From Methanocella sp. PtaU1.Bin125 (GTDB taxonomy: Archaea > Halobacteriota > Methanocellia > Methanocellales > Methanocellaceae), in assembly GCA_002067315.1 (NCBI GenBank), contig MVRA01000218.1, positions 1 to 34,541 of the forward strand: DNA of 34,541 bases. The letters run 5' to 3'. Shown piece by piece: positions 158 through 10,465 of the stretch. A program made the translations under genes and the position numbers. Position 1 is the stretch's first letter, and every line of letters starts with the position of its first letter. Below the pieces are notes generated by a model that worked only from the letters and a program-made list of their open reading frames with translations, did not search any database and had not been told where the DNA came from.

Positions 158-610
158 TTATCTGAGGAAGTGTCGTAGACTTGACTGATCGGGCCCCTCT
201 GCTACTACCGGTTTATGTTGTGACTCGTTAATGTAATGCCTAATCGTATCGGCAGTCACGTTGCCAACACTCCGGTAGAATTTGCCAGCAGTCCACAAGT
301 TGCCCTTCCACAACCGTTTCCGCAGTTCCGGGTGCAAACGGAACAATAGTACGGCGGATTCGCCTTTCAACTGCTTGATCACACCTGACAGCGAATCCGT
401 TGGGTGGAACTCTAAGAACAAATGCAAATGGTCATCAGCCACATGAATACTGATCACCCGGTAGCCTTTCCTATCGCAAATACCCCGGATCACCTGTTCA
501 CAATCACGTTTCATTACCGGCCCGTAAAAGATCTTATGCCGGTACTTTGGCACAAGGACAATGTGGTAAGTTATTTGTCCATAGCCATGGCTATAACTAT
601 TCAATTCCAT
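158..610 (-). CDS. tnpA: IS200/IS605 family transposase TnpA (Y1 HUH)
   Basis: 150-residue single-strand transposase. The HUH metal-binding motif is H61-L-H63 within DDHLHLF, and the likely nucleophile is Y126 in TIRHYINESQ, with the downstream Gln characteristic of this family. The length is full-size for IS200 TnpA, so the gene looks intact. The chosen ATG (608-610) begins MELNSYSHGYG, which matches the usual N-terminus; an in-frame upstream start at 673 would add 21 residues unlike the family. The protein should nick and rejoin single-stranded element ends at the two flanking hairpins. It has no accessory TnpB partner here. Confidence 0.9.
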   Translation of the reverse strand: MELNSYSHGYGQITYHIVLVPKYRHKIFYGPVMKRDCEQVIRGICDRKGYRVISIHVADDHLHLFLEFHPTDSLSGVIKQLKGESAVLLFRLHPELRKRLWKGNLWTAGKFYRSVGNVTADTIRHYINESQHKPVVAEGPDQSSLRHFLR

Positions 611-730
611 CTTGGTACATCCTGGCCGTTGGAAACCTTTACCCAAAGACCAACGGCCAGGCATATTACGCATTACTCTTTTAAAAGGAACACGTCGAGC
701 CGTTTCTAGAAAAGCGTAGAAAAGCCAACG

Positions 731-777
731 AGGGTTCGCTTCATCCCTGGCCTAAAGGCCAGGGTATTCGCGACCCT
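731..777. repeat. IS left-end compound hairpin
   Basis: The inner stem CCCTGGCC/GGCCAGGG (745-752, 757-764) has the loop TAAA. The outer arms AGGGTTCGC (731-739) and GCGACCCT (770-777) pair with one bulged T. It lies upstream of tnpA and mirrors the hairpin at 85-133 in architecture while differing in stem sequence. Confidence 0.7.
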
Positions 778-814
778 CCGCACTCCCAATGTAATAAAAA
801 TGAGCGGTAACCTT

Positions 815-3706
815 CTATTTTATACATTCTTCTATTACTTGTCTCTGTTCCTGGTCAATCCCATAGAGCTGGTATACTCGGTTATCAATGTTAACGTCTG
901 TCTCTTTTATCTGATTTATCAATTGGGTACGTTCATCTGTGGCTTTATCTTTGATAGTAATCAGTTTTTTATTTAGCTCCATCATCTTTTCAGCCAGTGA
1001 TGATAATTCCGGGTCTTTCGTTTTTGGTATTGGCACCTTACTGAGATATTTCCATGAAGCCTTATACCCGTTTTGAATTGGGGTTCCATAGTATTGTATA
1101 AAGAACCACCCTATACGCGAATTAAGTATCGATAGTAGATGTGGATCGTCTACTGGAAGGAAAAATATGACATTGTGCGTGAAGTAACCCTCTCTATCAA
1201 GCGCAAATTTTGGTGAAACCTGCATTTCGGCATACATTATTTTTGGCTTTGTGAATAAATCATAGTAAGAGCATGTTCTAAGCTCATACCACATTTCACC
1301 TTGATCTCCCCTTTTAGACAACTGTTCTTTAAAACCTAAAAGGTACTCATATACGGCTGGATACTTCGAGATGTCAATACCAATCTTGGTTAAAATCAGA
1401 TAGTCTCCTTGATAGTCGATTGCATATCGTTTTAACTCATTTCCGGTTATCATCGGAACGAGTATCTCTGCGCTATTAGGATCTTTTTCTATAAGCTCGT
1501 CTCGCTTTTCTTTAGATATCTTAAAGACATCAATGAGACCGGTTTTAATGCCATTGTAGAACTGGTTGTTAACATATTCTTTCAATGTAATGGTCTGCTC
1601 TTGGACCTTAGATACGATTTTCACAATATTTGGATTTACAAAATTCCAGTTCTCATCTTTAAGGTTCTTTTGATCAAAGGTAAATTGGTTTTGGTTAATG
1701 TAGTTCGTCAGGTTTTCAAAGTTCAATGTGGTGATGTTACATACGCGAACCTCTGGGTTCTGTTTCTTGATGTTGCGTATGATAATGATGCAGGGGTATG
1801 TCGTGGCTCCCTTGAATAGTTGGAGGTCGCCAAAGTCGATTAATTCTTCGATCCAATACTTGTTGAGGAATTTTCTAAGGTTGACACCAAAGCCTGCTTT
1901 TAGCCATTTTGATGATACGATCATGCCGAAATAGCCGCCCTCCTTTAGCATTTTTAATTCTCTCTCAAAGAAGTATACACAAAGATCGGCTTGTCCGTGG
2001 TATGACTCGTAGTTTTTCTCAAGGTATGGTTTGATCTCCTTTAATTCCTCCTGCCGAACATACGGGGGATTCCCAATAATGACATCAAACCCTCCAGCAC
2101 CCATGATTTCCGAAAACTCCGTTGCCCAGTTAAATGGCCTGCCAGCTTCAGGATTGTCCGACACCCCCATCTCTTGTAACGGCACAGATAATAGCGCGTT
2201 CCCGCACTTGATGTTATTGCGTAAGTCGGGCAAACGGTGCTTTGTCTCCGTCGCCTTTAGCAGCAAGTTAAGCTGGGCGATCTCAACCGCCTTAGGGTCC
2301 AGATCAACCCCGTAGAGGTTGTTCTTAAGGATATTGTTCTTACGGGTAGCTCTCCTCTCATCGTCTTCCTTGTTGGACAGCATGTGCTTTGTCGCTTCGT
2401 CGTATGTGTCAAAATAATTGTTAATGTAATCAAAAGCTTTTAAAAGGAAAGAGCCGGAACCGCAGGCCATGTCTAAGACCGCTAGCTTTTCCAGTTCTGC
2501 TGGTTTTTTATTAAACGTTGCTCCAACCGTATTCTTAACAATGTAGTCAACGATGAAGGTCGGCGTATAGTATATACCCTGGTCGTGCCTATGCGCTTCT
2601 TGGGTCTCTACCTTCGCCCGTTTATCCGTTGTTTTCAATATGCTGCTAAGGTACTGCTCGTATATGTTGCCCAGCACATCGGCGTCAATGGCTGAAAAAT
2701 CGAAGTGTGTAACCCCATCTTTGCTATCATATAACCCTTCGACGACCTCTAGGATCACATCGTTATCAATCTCTAGGTTCTCGCAAAGGTGCCGCTGCTC
2801 CAGGTTATCCGGGTTGTATGTGAATAGCTTGCTATTATAAGTCTGGTCGTATGCCCTGAAAATGGTGTTGATAGCCTTTATCAGTTTTTTATCGGGTTTA
2901 TCCCTAAACTGCCTGATTATCCCCCGTAGCCACTGAGGTTCGATCTCCCTATCCTCCGTGGTGCGGATAAATATGAGACGATCGATGATTCGCTGCACAG
3001 CCTCGTCGATGTCCTCGTCGTCCAGTAGCTTATCTAGATTACGCGCCTTGATGTTTTTTGACAGCTTCTCGCGGTAAACCATCAACTCATTAAGCAACTG
3101 TTCATTAACCTTTGTCTTTTTTTGTTTTTTATTCCATTTTTCAGCTTGTTTATTCAATAGTCCTTCGAGAAATCCGGGTTTTGATAGTAGCCAGAGTTGA
3201 TCGAAGTTTTCAATGTACTTGTCATAGGTTAATTCAATAAATCTCGCGTATTGTGGGTCCTTCTCGTTCACCTCCGCATTGTAAACGATCAGCGTATTGA
3301 AATCTGTTAAAACCGCCCATACGACTCCCTTATGCCAAGAGTAGTTGATTGCCTGGGCCGCGTCTTCCTTTTCGTTAAGGCCTTTATTCAACGCTTTAGC
3401 TTCGAGAAAAAATTTGGGTACACTATTGATCCTAAAGGAATAATCTACCCTGCCCCGGGATATTTTATCCTCATTGGTGACCTCGTCGGGGCACATCACG
3501 TTCTCAACATCCCACCCTAAGATGCGGAAGAGGGGGGTGATAAAATCCTTTTTAGTGTTCTCTTCGTTATAATTTCGAAGTCTGCCACTTGATCTGACGT
3601 TATTGTATTTATCCACAAGTTCTTTGATACGCGACTTCACTACCTCGTAATCAACCACAATATGCACCCATCCCGCAATGCCTTGGTTATTTAGGTATTC
3701 AAACAC
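815..3706 (-). CDS. type IIG restriction enzyme / N6-adenine methyltransferase
   Basis: A single 963-residue polypeptide combines cleavage, methylation and specificity. The N-terminal HsdR-N-like nuclease region has D88 and E102-A-K104, a PD-(D/E)XK core. The methyltransferase core has the SAM motif LDMACGSGSF (411-420) and the catalytic NPPY (546-549), typical of gamma-class N6-adenine enzymes of the Eco57I type. The C-terminal ~250 residues resemble the TaqI-like specificity domain. The start is a GTG at 3704-3706 with GGAAG about 13 bases upstream and an AT-rich TATA-like run near 3728-3740; GTG codons further in are possible alternatives. The gene is visibly AT-richer than its neighbours and sits beside an IS element, suggesting acquisition by transfer. 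It appears intact. Recognition sequence unknown. Confidence 0.9.
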   Translation of the reverse strand: MFEYLNNQGIAGWVHIVVDYEVVKSRIKELVDKYNNVRSSGRLRNYNEENTKKDFITPLFRILGWDVENVMCPDEVTNEDKISRGRVDYSFRINSVPKFFLEAKALNKGLNEKEDAAQAINYSWHKGVVWAVLTDFNTLIVYNAEVNEKDPQYARFIELTYDKYIENFDQLWLLSKPGFLEGLLNKQAEKWNKKQKKTKVNEQLLNELMVYREKLSKNIKARNLDKLLDDEDIDEAVQRIIDRLIFIRTTEDREIEPQWLRGIIRQFRDKPDKKLIKAINTIFRAYDQTYNSKLFTYNPDNLEQRHLCENLEIDNDVILEVVEGLYDSKDGVTHFDFSAIDADVLGNIYEQYLSSILKTTDKRAKVETQEAHRHDQGIYYTPTFIVDYIVKNTVGATFNKKPAELEKLAVLDMACGSGSFLLKAFDYINNYFDTYDEATKHMLSNKEDDERRATRKNNILKNNLYGVDLDPKAVEIAQLNLLLKATETKHRLPDLRNNIKCGNALLSVPLQEMGVSDNPEAGRPFNWATEFSEIMGAGGFDVIIGNPPYVRQEELKEIKPYLEKNYESYHGQADLCVYFFERELKMLKEGGYFGMIVSSKWLKAGFGVNLRKFLNKYWIEELIDFGDLQLFKGATTYPCIIIIRNIKKQNPEVRVCNITTLNFENLTNYINQNQFTFDQKNLKDENWNFVNPNIVKIVSKVQEQTITLKEYVNNQFYNGIKTGLIDVFKISKEKRDELIEKDPNSAEILVPMITGNELKRYAIDYQGDYLILTKIGIDISKYPAVYEYLLGFKEQLSKRGDQGEMWYELRTCSYYDLFTKPKIMYAEMQVSPKFALDREGYFTHNVIFFLPVDDPHLLSILNSRIGWFFIQYYGTPIQNGYKASWKYLSKVPIPKTKDPELSSLAEKMMELNKKLITIKDKATDERTQLINQIKETDVNIDNRVYQLYGIDQEQRQVIEECIK

Positions 3707-6139: not shown

Positions 6140-6147
6140 GGAGGTGA
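6140..6147 (+). promoter_or_regulatory. Shine-Dalgarno that fixes the Ub-E2 start
   Basis: GGAGGTGA is a full match to the archaeal 16S tail, eight bases before ATG 6156. It rules out the in-frame GTG at 6144, which lies within it. A TATA-like TTTTTATAAATG lies near 6078-6090. Confidence 0.7.
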
Positions 6148-6155
6148 ATATCCGT

Positions 6156-6782
6156 ATGGAAGCACAACAGGAGCTGGTCACGATCACCGTCGGGGGCCGT
6201 AAAGTAATGGTCCCGGGACAGACGAGCACGGCGGAGATCCGGACGATTGCCGGGCTGGACCGCGGGCACGTGCTCGCGCGAACGTCGGACGGCATGAACA
6301 GGGTGGTCAGCGGAAGCCTGCAGGTCAGGGAAGGCGAGGCGTTCGCCGTGGGGCGGTCGTTCACGAAAGGTTCCATGGACGACGCGCGGCTGCTGGACGA
6401 GCTGGAACGCCTCTCCCATTTTTTCGATCTCGAGACCGACGACCGCCTGAGCTGGGTGCTCATCTACGGGTACGGGCTGCCGGAGGGGTATAACCGGCCA
6501 CAGATTGATATCCTATTCAACACCGCCGGGTTCCCGTACATACCGCCGGCGAGCATTTTCGGCGTCTACATGGAGCGGGGGCTGACCTACGGGGGCCGGC
6601 GCCTGCCGAACTATTACGAGGCGCTGACCCGGAGGCTCTTCGGCCGCGAGTGGGCCTGGTTCTGTACCGGGCACATGGCCTGGGACCCGCAAAGGGACGA
6701 CCTCACCACGTTTCTCGTCACCCTGGACCTGATGCTGGCCGACCCCCTCGGGGAACGACTGGAGGACGGCGTCAATGCGTGA
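6156..6782 (+). CDS. ubiquitin-like domain fused to prokaryotic E2-like domain
   Basis: 208 residues. Residues ~6-70 look like a ubiquitin-like (multiubiquitin-type) domain: strand LVTITVGGRKVMV, helix with EIRTIAGL, then strands ending in EGEAFAVG. Residues ~95-195 match the prokaryotic E2 family E pattern: W100 with YGYGLPEGYN, FPYIPP, then W168-F-C170-T-G-H-M-A-W and DDLTTFL. C170 is the only cysteine, so it is the sole candidate for a thioester site; some family members may lack one, so catalysis is unproven. It overlaps the downstream JAB-E1 gene by eight bases, indicating translational coupling. The Ub-like domain is N-terminal and internal, with no free Gly-Gly end, so how it would be released or conjugated is unclear. 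Confidence 0.7.
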   Translation: MEAQQELVTITVGGRKVMVPGQTSTAEIRTIAGLDRGHVLARTSDGMNRVVSGSLQVREGEAFAVGRSFTKGSMDDARLLDELERLSHFFDLETDDRLSWVLIYGYGLPEGYNRPQIDILFNTAGFPYIPPASIFGVYMERGLTYGGRRLPNYYEALTRRLFGREWAWFCTGHMAWDPQRDDLTTFLVTLDLMLADPLGERLEDGVNA

Positions 6783-8244
6783 GGACGGCCGCAAGTTCCG
6801 GGTGATGGCGGCAAAAAAGCAGGTGCGGACCGACCGGACGCTGCACGTCGTTTTCCCGGAGGAGAGCTTCCGGAATATGACCGCGTCGTTCGATGACGAC
6901 GAGAAACGCGGTCGCGAAGGATACGCGGTCGCGATCTGCGGCCAGAAAGCCGGGGCAGATAAACGGTCCGTTACATACATGGCCCGGAGCATCGACATTC
7001 CCGGGAAGGGCGATCTCATCAGCCAGTCGAGCGTGAGCGTTACGCCGTCCGGGGACTTCATGGAATCGGTCCTCGCGGCAGCGGCCCGGCGCCAGGGCAT
7101 CGTGCTCGAGATCCACACGCACCCGGGGTCAGCCGACCCGGTCTTTTCGTCGGTCGATATCGACCACGGCCTGGACAACGGCCGGTTCCTGCGGTCCTGC
7201 CACACCCGTTTCTGCATGATGGTGATCGGCGCCGAGGGCTTCTCGGTCATGGAGTATAACGGCGAAAGCGACAGCCTGCAATTGCCGCGGGCGGCAGCTA
7301 TTTCGCTGATGGGGCGCCAGGGCTTGAGGCAGATACTGCCGGCCGCGGAGACGCTATGCGACGGGCCTTCGCCCGAGGCGGTGGACCGGCAGGTGCGAAT
7401 CTGGGGCGCCCGGTGCCAGCGCAGGATAGAAGCGACCATCGCAGGCATCGTCGGCCTCGGGGGCACCGGCGCCGCACTCCTGCAAATGCTGGCCCTGATA
7501 GGCGTGAAAAAGTTCGTCCTCTGCGACCCGGACGACATCGAGCCGTCGAACCTCAGCCGGCTGCCTTACGCCTGCGCCACGGACGCGGGCAAGAAGAAAA
7601 CCCGGGCCGCCGCCGGCTATCTCAGGAAGACCGCCCGGGATGTCGAGGTCGAAACCGTCAACGACCGCGTCCAGGACGCGAAGGAGGCGCTCCGGGCATG
7701 CGACGTGCTGTTCGGCTGCGTCGACAACGACGGCGCCCGGCTGTCGATGAACGAGGTGGCGCTCAAGTATTTTATCCCATACATCGACACCGGCACGGAG
7801 ATTTTTGTGGAGAACGGGAAGGTCCGTGATATGGGCGGACAGGTACGCATCGTGGTCCCGTCGGTCACGGGATGCCTGGAATGTGCGGGCGCCATCGATC
7901 GCACGGAGGCGGCCGCAAGCCTGGTCTCCGGCGAAGAGCACGCGGTGCGCGAGGCGGCAGGATACGTCCGGGGCACAGCAGATACCCCGGCGCCCGCGGT
8001 GATCACGCTGAACACGATCATCGCCTCGATGGCCGCCCAGGAGTTCGTGGACATGATCGCCTGCCGGGACCGCGAGAACGCGCCGAACTACCTGCTATAC
8101 GACGCCACCCGACCGCAAATCGAGCGATTTTTATTCGAGCGCAGCCCGGACTGCCCTATGTGCGGCCGCGACGGCATTCTGGGGGCGGGGGACCCGAAGC
8201 GGCACGGCCGGCCGGGCGTTAAAAAAATCAGGTCCCCGGGCTAA
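6775..8244 (+). CDS. JAMM deubiquitinase-like protease fused to E1/ThiF-type adenylyltransferase
   Basis: 489 residues. The N-terminal half is a JAB/MPN metalloprotease: HTHP at 114-117 followed by S125-x-x-D128, the zinc ligands and active-site residues of JAMM enzymes. The C-terminal half is an E1-like adenylating domain: DRQVRIWG (204-211), nucleotide-binding GLGGTG (227-232), DPDDIEPSNLSR (251-262), and two zinc-binding pairs CLEC (367-370) and CPMC (460-463). E1 enzymes adenylate the C-terminus of a ubiquitin-like protein; JAMM proteases cut isopeptide or linear fusions. With the overlapping Ub-E2 gene this makes a compact two-gene set of Ub, E2, protease and E1. No separate E1 catalytic cysteine is evident to me outside the zinc pairs. 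All core motifs are intact. Confidence 0.85.
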   Translation: MREDGRKFRVMAAKKQVRTDRTLHVVFPEESFRNMTASFDDDEKRGREGYAVAICGQKAGADKRSVTYMARSIDIPGKGDLISQSSVSVTPSGDFMESVLAAAARRQGIVLEIHTHPGSADPVFSSVDIDHGLDNGRFLRSCHTRFCMMVIGAEGFSVMEYNGESDSLQLPRAAAISLMGRQGLRQILPAAETLCDGPSPEAVDRQVRIWGARCQRRIEATIAGIVGLGGTGAALLQMLALIGVKKFVLCDPDDIEPSNLSRLPYACATDAGKKKTRAAAGYLRKTARDVEVETVNDRVQDAKEALRACDVLFGCVDNDGARLSMNEVALKYFIPYIDTGTEIFVENGKVRDMGGQVRIVVPSVTGCLECAGAIDRTEAAASLVSGEEHAVREAAGYVRGTADTPAPAVITLNTIIASMAAQEFVDMIACRDRENAPNYLLYDATRPQIERFLFERSPDCPMCGRDGILGAGDPKRHGRPGVKKIRSPG

Positions 8245-8287: not shown

Positions 8288-8752
8288 ATGCCGGAGGATG
8301 CCAGACTGTCGAAGCGGGCGCGAGAGGACTACCTGATCAGGCTGGAAAAAGAGTTCGCGTTCGCCGGGGCAAGCATTCCCGAACACGTTACGATCGACGG
8401 CGAGGACATACGCCTGCGGGCCTTTGTTTTCGAGATTATGAAGAAGAAAGGCGGCCTTACGGACGACGAGCAGGCCCAGGTCGACCGCGTGGCGGCGCTC
8501 GTGCGACGGAAGCGCAGCGCCATCGTCAGGGAGATCTCTTCGGCGGATATATCCGCAAACGAGGCTGAAAATCTCTACAGGACCGCCATCGGGCTGGGCC
8601 GGGCGCTGGACACGCTGGGCAGGGCCCACGAGCCCCGGTCGTCGGTGCAGGACGAGGCCAGGAAAGCGAAAATTGAGGACGGGCGGCGCTGGCTGGGCCT
8701 GGTCCGGCGCATCTACACGAAAGAGAGAAGGGACAGGGACGGGTTCCAATGA
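8288..8752 (+). CDS. DUF5788-like archaeal protein
   Basis: 154 residues, highly charged and helical, no membrane segment. The N-terminal part (RLEKEFAFAGASIPEHVTIDGEDIRLRAFVFEI) resembles the archaeal DUF5788 family as I remember it; function unknown. It has its own TATA box and palindrome after the E1 stop, so it is probably a separate unit from the Ub-like cassette. The last four bases overlap the next gene (ATGA), so it is coupled to the YkgJ-type protein. The ATG lacks a strong ribosome-binding site and may be read from a short leader. Confidence 0.6.
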   Translation: MPEDARLSKRAREDYLIRLEKEFAFAGASIPEHVTIDGEDIRLRAFVFEIMKKKGGLTDDEQAQVDRVAALVRRKRSAIVREISSADISANEAENLYRTAIGLGRALDTLGRAHEPRSSVQDEARKAKIEDGRRWLGLVRRIYTKERRDRDGFQ

Positions 8753-9105
8753 GCGGAAAAAAGCGAGCGGGAAGCTGCCGGCAATGCGGCAACTGCTGCC
8801 GGGACTTCATCATCGACGTGCGCATCGGCGACGTGACCGACTTCGAGTTCACCGACTACCTGCAGTGGATCAATTGCCACGAGAACGTGCGGGCGGACAT
8901 TAAGAATTTCAAGCGCCGCGAGGTCGAGCTGCTGATCAAGACGCCGTGTAAGTACCTGGTGGACAACGGCGACGGGAAGTTCTCCTGTGCCATCCAGGAC
9001 TCGAAACCCGAAATATGTAAGCGCTACCCGGAAGAGGACTATGACGACGAGATCAGCCGCAAATGCGGCTTCAGGTTCGTCGATGTGCCCGAGCGCCGGG
9101 ACTAA
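8749..9105 (+). CDS. YkgJ-family cysteine cluster protein
   Basis: 118 residues. The metal-binding cysteine pattern is CRQCGNCC near the N-terminus, TPCKYL in the middle, then FSCAIQDSKPEICKRYP and a final CGF. This is the YkgJ/UPF0153 pattern, thought to bind zinc or an iron-sulfur cluster; the biochemical role is not established. The start overlaps the end of the DUF5788-like gene by four bases, the usual sign of one transcript. Confidence 0.8.
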   Translation: MSGKKRAGSCRQCGNCCRDFIIDVRIGDVTDFEFTDYLQWINCHENVRADIKNFKRREVELLIKTPCKYLVDNGDGKFSCAIQDSKPEICKRYPEEDYDDEISRKCGFRFVDVPERRD

Positions 9106-9110
9106 AAATA

Positions 9111-9118
9111 TTTATAAG
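9111..9118 (+). promoter_or_regulatory. TATA box of aIF1 gene
   Basis: TTTATAAG, 35 bases before the ATG, right after the YkgJ stop; it gives aIF1 its own promoter. Confidence 0.55.
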
Positions 9119-9152
9119 GACATAATTCATAGATACCATTCGAGAGCACAAT

Positions 9153-9458
9153 ATGGAAATTTGCAATAAATGTGGACTACCGTCCGATATCTGTATCTGT
9201 GAAGACCTTGCAAAAGAGACACAAAAAATCATCATAACGACTAACACGCGGCGGTTCAAGAAGCTGACCACCGTGATCGATGGCATCGATTCGAAAACGA
9301 TGAACATCAAAGAGCTCGCCCAGAAGCTGAAGACCAAGTTCGCGTGCGGCGGCACCATCAAGGAGGGCCGCATCGAACTGCAGGGCGACCATAAAGAAGC
9401 AGTCAAGAACCTGCTGATCAGCTACGGGTTCTCCCGGGACCTGATCGAAGTCAGGTAA
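9153..9458 (+). CDS. translation initiation factor aIF1 / SUI1 (YciH-like)
   Basis: 101 residues, the standard size for archaeal aIF1. It has an N-terminal zinc knuckle (CNKCGLPSDICIC) and the SUI1 core with RRFKKLTTVIDGID, ELAQKLKTKFACGGT and IELQGDHKEAVKNLL. aIF1 acts on the small ribosomal subunit to promote correct start-codon choice. A possible hairpin after the gene (paired ATGCC/GGCAT and GGTAA/TTACC between about 9518 and 9563, followed by T-rich sequence) may end the transcript. Confidence 0.92.
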   Translation: MEICNKCGLPSDICICEDLAKETQKIIITTNTRRFKKLTTVIDGIDSKTMNIKELAQKLKTKFACGGTIKEGRIELQGDHKEAVKNLLISYGFSRDLIEVR

Positions 9459-9693: not shown

Positions 9694-9936
9694 ATGGCAG
9701 GTAAGGACAGAGGTGACATGACCGTCAGGGAGGCGGGCCACAAGGGTGGCGAGACCACCCGGGAACGGTACGGGGAGGGCTTTTACGAGGAGATCGGCAA
9801 GAAGGGCGGCAAACGCGGCGGCGAGACGACCAAAGAGCGCTACGGCGGCAGCTTTTACGAGGACATCGGCCACAGGGGAGGGCAGAAAGTAAAAGAGCTG
9901 ATCGAGCGCGGCAAGAGCTCGCGGCAGCGAAAATAA
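9694..9936 (+). CDS. KGG-repeat stress protein
   Basis: 80 residues, very hydrophilic, Gly/Lys/Glu-rich, with repeated units of the form [HK]KGG.TT[RK][EQ]RYG.[GS]FYE[ED]IG, recognised as the KGG motif found in GsiB/plant Em-like (LEA-type) desiccation and starvation proteins. Two full units are present. GAGGTG lies upstream of the ATG. It is a close paralogue of the gene at 10184; each has its own upstream region, so they are a tandem duplication rather than one operon. Likely disordered and protective; precise role unknown. Confidence 0.8.
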   Translation: MAGKDRGDMTVREAGHKGGETTRERYGEGFYEEIGKKGGKRGGETTKERYGGSFYEDIGHRGGQKVKELIERGKSSRQRK

Positions 9937-10088
9937 CAGCCCTTTCGCCCCGGGAGCCATAAGACGACCGTTGCCGGTCATGCGACGGGAAATTTTAGCG
10001 TCATATGCTCCGGGACGACATATTATCTGTTTTGGGGCTTGTACAGGTTACCTGGCGGCTGTTTTTACGGTACAGATGCAATAAATCT

Positions 10089-10114
10089 GCCCGCGGGCAA
10101 TTTTAAACGCGTTT
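10089..10114. promoter_or_regulatory. two palindromes upstream of second KGG gene
   Basis: GCCCGCGGGC (10089-10098) and AAACGCGTTT (10105-10114) are each self-complementary and sit about 70-95 bases before the gene start, upstream of an AT-rich promoter region. Candidate regulatory sites only. Confidence 0.25.
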
Positions 10115-10183
10115 TAACCGGGCAAAATTAAAAAAGAATAAAATTTTAGGGATTATATGGCATAGAGTGGGGTGTTTTTAGAT

Positions 10184-10465
10184 ATGGCTGAGAAAAAGGC
10201 AGAAATGACTGTACGAGAGGCCGGACACAAAGGTGGCTCCACGACGAAACAGCGCTACGGCGAAGGTTTCTACGAGGAGATCGGCAAGAAGGGCGGCAAG
10301 ATCGGCGGCAAGAAGGGAGGTACCACGACCAAGCAGCGCTACGGCGAGGGCTTCTACGAGCAGATCGGCCGGAAAGGCGGGCAGAAGGTCCGAGAGCTGA
10401 TCGAGCGCGGCAAGGCGGCGTCCGAACCGCGCAGTACCAGTCGCAGCACAAGCCGCAAGAAATAA
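10184..10465 (+). CDS. KGG-repeat stress protein, second copy
   Basis: 93 residues from ATG 10184 (MAEKKAEMTVREAGHKGG); an upstream in-frame ATG at 10172 would add four residues. It has the same repeat architecture as the protein at 9694, plus an extra KGGKIGGKKGG block and a Ser/Arg tail. The shared MTVREAGHKGG start and (V)K/RELIERGK end show recent common origin. An AT-rich promoter (about 10128-10160) precedes it. T-rich sequence after the stop (10495-10502) may terminate. Confidence 0.8.
   Translation: MAEKKAEMTVREAGHKGGSTTKQRYGEGFYEEIGKKGGKIGGKKGGTTTKQRYGEGFYEQIGRKGGQKVRELIERGKAASEPRSTSRSTSRKK

Follow-up and report, generated by a model that had tools for sequence, protein, structure and literature searches.

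Can two overlapping genes of a methanogen hold a complete ubiquitin-like (Ub) conjugation pathway and, if they can, to which family does it belong? Archaeal Ub-like conjugation is best known from the SAMPs and from the Caldiarchaeum-type system, and the question is raised here by a two-gene cassette of Methanocella sp. PtaU1.Bin125, within a window of 34,541 nt (the whole stretch of DNA that was analysed). An initial annotation had placed four Ub-pathway activities in the two genes, namely a Ub-like modifier, an E2, a JAMM protease and an E1, and this assignment is upheld by homology, fold models and conservation.

Gene layout and domain identity

Gene A (6156..6782, plus strand; 208 aa plus stop) starts at ATG 6156 and encodes a Ub-E2 fusion, as judged from homology and fold. 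Gene B (6775..8244, plus strand; 489 aa plus stop) starts at ATG 6775 and is by homology a JAMM/JAB-E1 fusion; the two genes overlap by 8 nt. Both are preceded by a purine-rich ribosome-binding site recognised in the sequence, the Shine-Dalgarno-like GGAGGTGA (6140..6147, plus strand) 5' of the gene A start codon and GGAGG (6761..6765, plus strand) within the 3' end of gene A for gene B. Comparisons were made with G000-G003, which we take to be Methanocella-type genomes.

The E2-like domain (gene A residues 73-208; 6372..6779, plus strand) was identified by both homology and fold. Residues 94-198, in a 212-aa numbering, match Pfam Prok-E2_E at the curated cut-off (E 1.7e-5), and the E2 part also matches Citrobacter BubB in sequence (E about 1e-5). 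In a fold search with the AlphaFold2 model of full-length gene A (mean pLDDT 64, with mostly higher values in the E2 part), BubB was the sole match below E 0.001 (5.7e-6); the E2 model was built on five sequences and is of moderate quality. The candidate nucleophile C170 (codon 6663..6665, plus strand, in the motif WFCTG) aligns with the Ser of bacterial Bub E2s, and was provisionally placed at the canonical E2 active site from the BubB-family alignment and the spacing to the next helix.

The Ub-like domain (gene A residues 1-72; 6156..6371, plus strand) is present as a single copy in the source genome and is kept in four genomes. It was modelled separately from full-length gene A because the Ub rows were misaligned in the joint alignment. 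The AlphaFold2 model of residues 1-78 (pLDDT 80.6) has the strand-strand-helix-strand-strand-strand order of a beta-grasp, and in Foldseek it resembles bacterial multi-ubiquitin proteins with a TM score of 0.69, at weak E values of about 0.01-0.04. A Ub-Ub profile comparison gave a modest match (probability 88%) in which the N-terminal half alone aligned. The initial annotation had singled out the beta-grasp and E2 folds as the points on which its reading should be checked, and both came out in its favour.

Gene B matches ThiF strongly (E 1.7e-43) and Prok-JAB weakly, under the cut-off (2.6e-4); among solved structures it matches Citrobacter BubCD best (1.5e-20), in an alignment that spans JAB and E1. 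Conservation and motifs delimit the JAMM/JAB domain to about residues 1-180 (6775..7314, plus strand), with H114, H116, S125 and D128 at 7114-7158. The E1 (ThiF) domain was located by homology (7336..8241, plus strand), and its motifs, on the same strand, are GLGGTG (7453-7470) and the zinc CxxC pairs (7873-7884 and 8152-8163). Across 10 diverse homologues, the four JAMM residues, GLGGTG and the two CxxC pairs show no or almost no variation, and the earlier statement that the JAMM and E1 motifs are complete holds.

Assignment to the Bub / row 6e family

Among solved structures, Citrobacter BubB and BubCD come closest to the cassette in both sequence and fold (Citrobacter BubA / BubB / BubCD: PDB 9ea4, 9eae, 9eav). 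From these sequence and model comparisons we conclude that the cassette belongs, as an archaeal member, to the Bub / row 6e conjugation systems and is no new system type. With Citrobacter Bub it shares an E2 of the Prok-E2_E type, a JAB domain N-terminal to E1 within one protein, intact JAMM ligands and E1 motifs, an E1 without the canonical catalytic Cys (a family trait observed in this analysis), and a beta-grasp Ub with a tail glycine, encoded alongside the enzymes. It differs in lying on an archaeal chromosome in conserved synteny, in carrying Ub and E2 in one protein with a single Ub domain, in having Cys for Ser at the E2 site, and in lacking DUF6527. A search of the source genome did not turn up this zinc protein, which most of the bacterial operons seen here encode, and the pathway may therefore be incomplete or rely on another E3-like factor; DUF6527 is also unannotated in several other loci and is therefore probably not strictly defining.

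Row 6e was described in 2006, from bacteria only, as JAB-E1 fusions with some Ub-E2 fusions (Iyer et al., PMC1779556), and its polyUbl operons resemble the cassette in combining Ub, an E2/RWD-like protein and JAB-E1, some of them with Ub fused to E2. The E2s of this row were described as lacking the cysteine and hence as inactive (PMC1779556). C170, by contrast, occupies the bacterial Ser column, and because the archaeal branch departs in this way from the 2006 description, the cassette is filed as a variant. Bub is the name of the family, for which 544 operons have been counted according to work cited in PMC13373217. The Jab-E1 fusion of methanogen RC1 (RC-I), mentioned in 2010 (Makarova and Koonin, PMC2948915), is very probably the G001 orthologue of gene B. 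A neighbouring Ub-E2 gene seems to have been overlooked at the time, since the same paper reports that, as of 2010, E2-like proteins had not been detected in archaea, and no description of such a gene beside the RC1 Jab-E1 was found in it (PMC2948915).

Gene pairs encoding Ub-E2 and JAB-E1 were found in Sinorhizobium, Paracoccus, Acinetobacter and pKAZ5, and with these bacterial precedents a new two-fusion system type is ruled out. The suggestion that an archaeal two-fusion form may be undescribed has to be narrowed accordingly, as the arrangement is not categorically new (PMC1779556, PMC2948915). As far as checked, the new elements are the conserved Ub-tail glycine, the archaeal E2 Cys versus bacterial Ser, and the conserved chromosomal synteny with purifying selection.

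Haloarchaeal loci (Natrinema, Natribaculum, Salinigranum and six other genomes) share Ub, a Cys-type E2 and JAB-E1 with the cassette but have one gene for Ub and another for E2; a second E2 paralogue occurs in four of these haloarchaeal loci, and in some the E1 is extended at its C terminus. These extensions are long in the JAB-E1 proteins of L032, L033 and L105, and in the first two they end in a hydrophobic, possibly membrane-anchoring segment. A small hydrophobic protein is encoded beside E1 in Natrinema (L031) and in G649 (L099). The Bil (BilABCD) and Caldiarchaeum Ub operons likewise have the full Ub/E1/E2/JAMM set, E2 Cys included, but their E1 and E2 families differ from those of the cassette: BilD gave a weak, partial match (5.5e-8, E1 core), and there was none for the E2. 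CBASS type II has an E2-E1 fusion, a separate JAB (Cap2/Cap3) and a cyclase, as opposed to the JAB-E1 order found here, and no cyclase was recognised adjoining the cassette.

Tail of the Ub-like domain and predicted processing of the fusion

According to the initial annotation, the Ub-like domain lies N-terminal to the E2 and has no free Gly-Gly tail. The first part stands; as to the second, a candidate C-terminal glycine, G72 (codon 6369-6371), is present at the end of the tail GRSFTKG (6351..6371, plus strand), and a JAMM cut is predicted between G72 and S73 (GRSFTKG/SMDD). In standalone relatives, the residue aligned with G72 is a glycine at or near the C terminus; in nearly all bacterial and haloarchaeal loci compared, the tails of these proteins have a glycine followed by 0-7 residues (for example TTEG, ANFG, VFG and ATFG+L). 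The bacterial fusions likewise have their junction glycine in line with G72 (Sinorhizobium TTEG/LETL, pKAZ5 TTEG/LLTL, Paracoccus TTAG/DAQS and Acinetobacter VNNG/DVSL). The junction in the window and its relatives, FTKG/SMDD, is invariant in three genomes. Because the conserved tail glycine sits where standalone relatives end, the Ub-E2 fusion probably serves as a precursor that the JAB domain cleaves after G72. Internal cleavage of the modifier by JAMM had been raised before as a possibility, and as a prediction it is supported by homology, fold models and conservation.

Alternatively, Ub might never be released, but stay on the E2 and dock or oligomerise in cis, with JAMM-E1 serving another modifier such as a SAMP. 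Such an arrangement would suit the position of Ub N-terminal to E2 in all three intact genomes, and bacterial multi-Ub proteins form filaments, to judge from the title of PDB 9d59. We nevertheless regard it as improbable: FTKG is invariant over four genomes, including G003, where the partner has changed and Ub is followed by JAB directly, a glycine occurs at the same junction in bacteria, and the one other ThiF match in the genome (C70) could serve SAMPs.

The E1 and the E2 active site

ThiF/UBA-type E1s carry their catalytic cysteine between the first zinc CxxC and the PAPAV segment. Cys is absent from this region in 30 of the 31 homologues in which it could be delimited by pattern, the Methanocella protein included, and because the canonical E1 cysteine is missing family-wide, we propose that C170 of the released E2 probably attacks the Ub-adenylate directly. 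Two haloarchaeal loci (L100 and L101) serve as natural controls. In their Ub and E2 pairs the E2 site is Glu and the Ub tail reads VFR, as opposed to VFG; no E1 was detectable nearby, and the E1, the tail glycine and the E2 nucleophile appear to have been lost together.

In an alignment of 43 E2 domains, the C170 column holds Ser in all 22 bacterial loci (an IMG/VR contig among them), in a bacterial sample made up of plasmids and a few genomes; Citrobacter BubB also has Ser, in what is by eye the same motif (QRWSRH). Cys occupies the column in 13 of the 14 archaeal loci in which E1 adjoins E2, the exception being G359 (Ser), and is invariant in the three Methanocella-type genomes. The second E2 paralogues of haloarchaea have Asp, Ser, Ser or Ile in this column. 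A His two residues past the nucleophile is present in 21 of 22 bacterial Ser loci versus 5 of 13 Cys enzymes, a bias compatible with, though no proof of, a serine that relies on a base; in Methanocella this His is absent. In a tree built from 35 JAB-E1 proteins, the Cys and Ser types are separated by one split (support 83/84) with one change, and the difference is therefore counted as one evolutionary event, so that a Fisher p value computed over the loci is not independent evidence; the Ub-E2 fusion takes four changes on the same tree, and thus probably arose several times.

The earlier proposal that C170 forms a thioester gains support from homology, fold models and conservation, which make this residue a candidate nucleophile. 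The primary Bub paper (Ye et al. 2026) reportedly favours an oxyester intermediate over a thioester. We tentatively suggest, at somewhat less than even odds, that archaeal Bub systems use an E2 Cys thioester fed by the E1 adenylate, and that bacterial ones use a Ser-His pair and an oxyester at the same position.

Genomic context, selection and distribution

Gene order is shared by G000, G001 and G002, in which Ub-E2 and JAB-E1 are followed by DUF5788, CxxCxxCC, SUI1, two KGG genes, a Na/H antiporter-like gene and a TIM-barrel-like gene. For gene A and gene B, dN/dS between G000 and G001 is about 0.10 and 0.17, respectively, with dS near saturation, and in every pair of intact copies dN is well below dS, which indicates purifying selection. 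Because of the conserved synteny and the low dN, we conclude that the locus is old and resident. In the window, the DUF5788, CxxCxxCC and SUI1/YciH-like array (8288-9458) is kept even where the conjugation genes decay, and the two tandem KGG/LEA_5-like genes for small stress proteins (9694-10465) are conserved in relatives. G002 has an extra third gene (L096, 8692-9105) directly 3' of JAB-E1; it is E2-like with a Cys motif, and resembles the E2 of L043, a MAG labelled Nanoarchaeota.

In G003, a remnant of the cassette adjoins DUF5788, CxxCxxCC, SUI1 and KGG. Here Ub is fused straight to JAB and a degenerate E1 (L097, 6501-7949), with the E2 deleted and the frame open; the E1 loop reads GLDGIG, and FTKG and the JAMM motif are retained. 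The fusion is an apparent step in pathway loss. That the cassette as a whole is decaying and has no conjugation activity, as in G003, could be argued from this loss of the E2 and of an intact E1 P-loop and from the missing DUF6527 of the source genome, but it is very unlikely given that all motifs are intact in G000-G002 and that dN is far below dS.

The synteny also bears on a role in anti-phage defence analogous to Bil or CBASS type II, a link that the initial annotation had drawn. Family resemblance speaks for this role, and a type IIG restriction-methyltransferase (815-3706) lies 2.5 kb upstream of the cassette, beside an IS200-type transposase-like ORF recognised by eye (together 161-3706, minus strand). 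The restriction enzyme is, however, absent from the syntenic stretch of the relatives, where the cassette and the genes downstream of it are kept in conserved order with ordinary genes. PADLOC gave no match for Ub-E2, no Cap-type regulator was recognised beside the cassette, and, according to PMC13373217, the Bub authors themselves state that phage protection by Bub has not been demonstrated. A defence function is thus doubtful, and in view of the conserved synteny a defence island was set aside as the favoured reading.

The bacterial members were recovered mostly on plasmids, which is partly a sampling effect, as opposed to the chromosomal archaeal cassette. An E2 of the cassette type was found in 5 of 393 genomes in the phylum sample and in 9 of 392 in a separate haloarchaeal sample; these counts come from an alignment-based search, since Pfam PF14462 alone missed the source genome. 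As a single-sequence query, Ub-E2 gave no match in the genome contigs and viral contigs searched, and a search with a diverse E1 alignment returned mostly ordinary ThiF proteins (30 loci, 5 useful).

Proposed mechanism and significance

We consider it probable that the two genes form a minimal archaeal Bub-type Ub-like conjugation cassette working by the following steps, for which we infer the catalytic chemistry, the cleavage site and the targets. Ub-E2 would be synthesised as a single precursor and then cut after G72 (FTKG/SMDD) by the gene B JAMM domain, yielding Ub with a free C-terminal glycine and E2 in equal amounts. G72 would be adenylated by the E1 domain, which shares a polypeptide with JAMM, and C170 of the E2 would attack the Ub-adenylate directly to form a thioester. 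The E2 would then hand Ub to a lysine or another nucleophile on targets, from which JAMM could also remove it. The most likely cellular role is that of a resident protein-modification pathway, perhaps in stress, rather than that of a recently acquired phage-defence island.

Should archaeal Bub E2s indeed form a thioester and bacterial ones an oxyester, the Bub family would hold a natural exchange between Ser and Cys as E2 nucleophile, and the cassette would be its most compact form, with a self-processed Ub-E2 precursor. The single Ser/Cys split offers a direct test of Bub E2 chemistry, and so makes the unusual chemistry of the family testable. As all core Bub parts lie in two vertically inherited genes of a methanogen, the targets of the pathway could be sought by proteomics.
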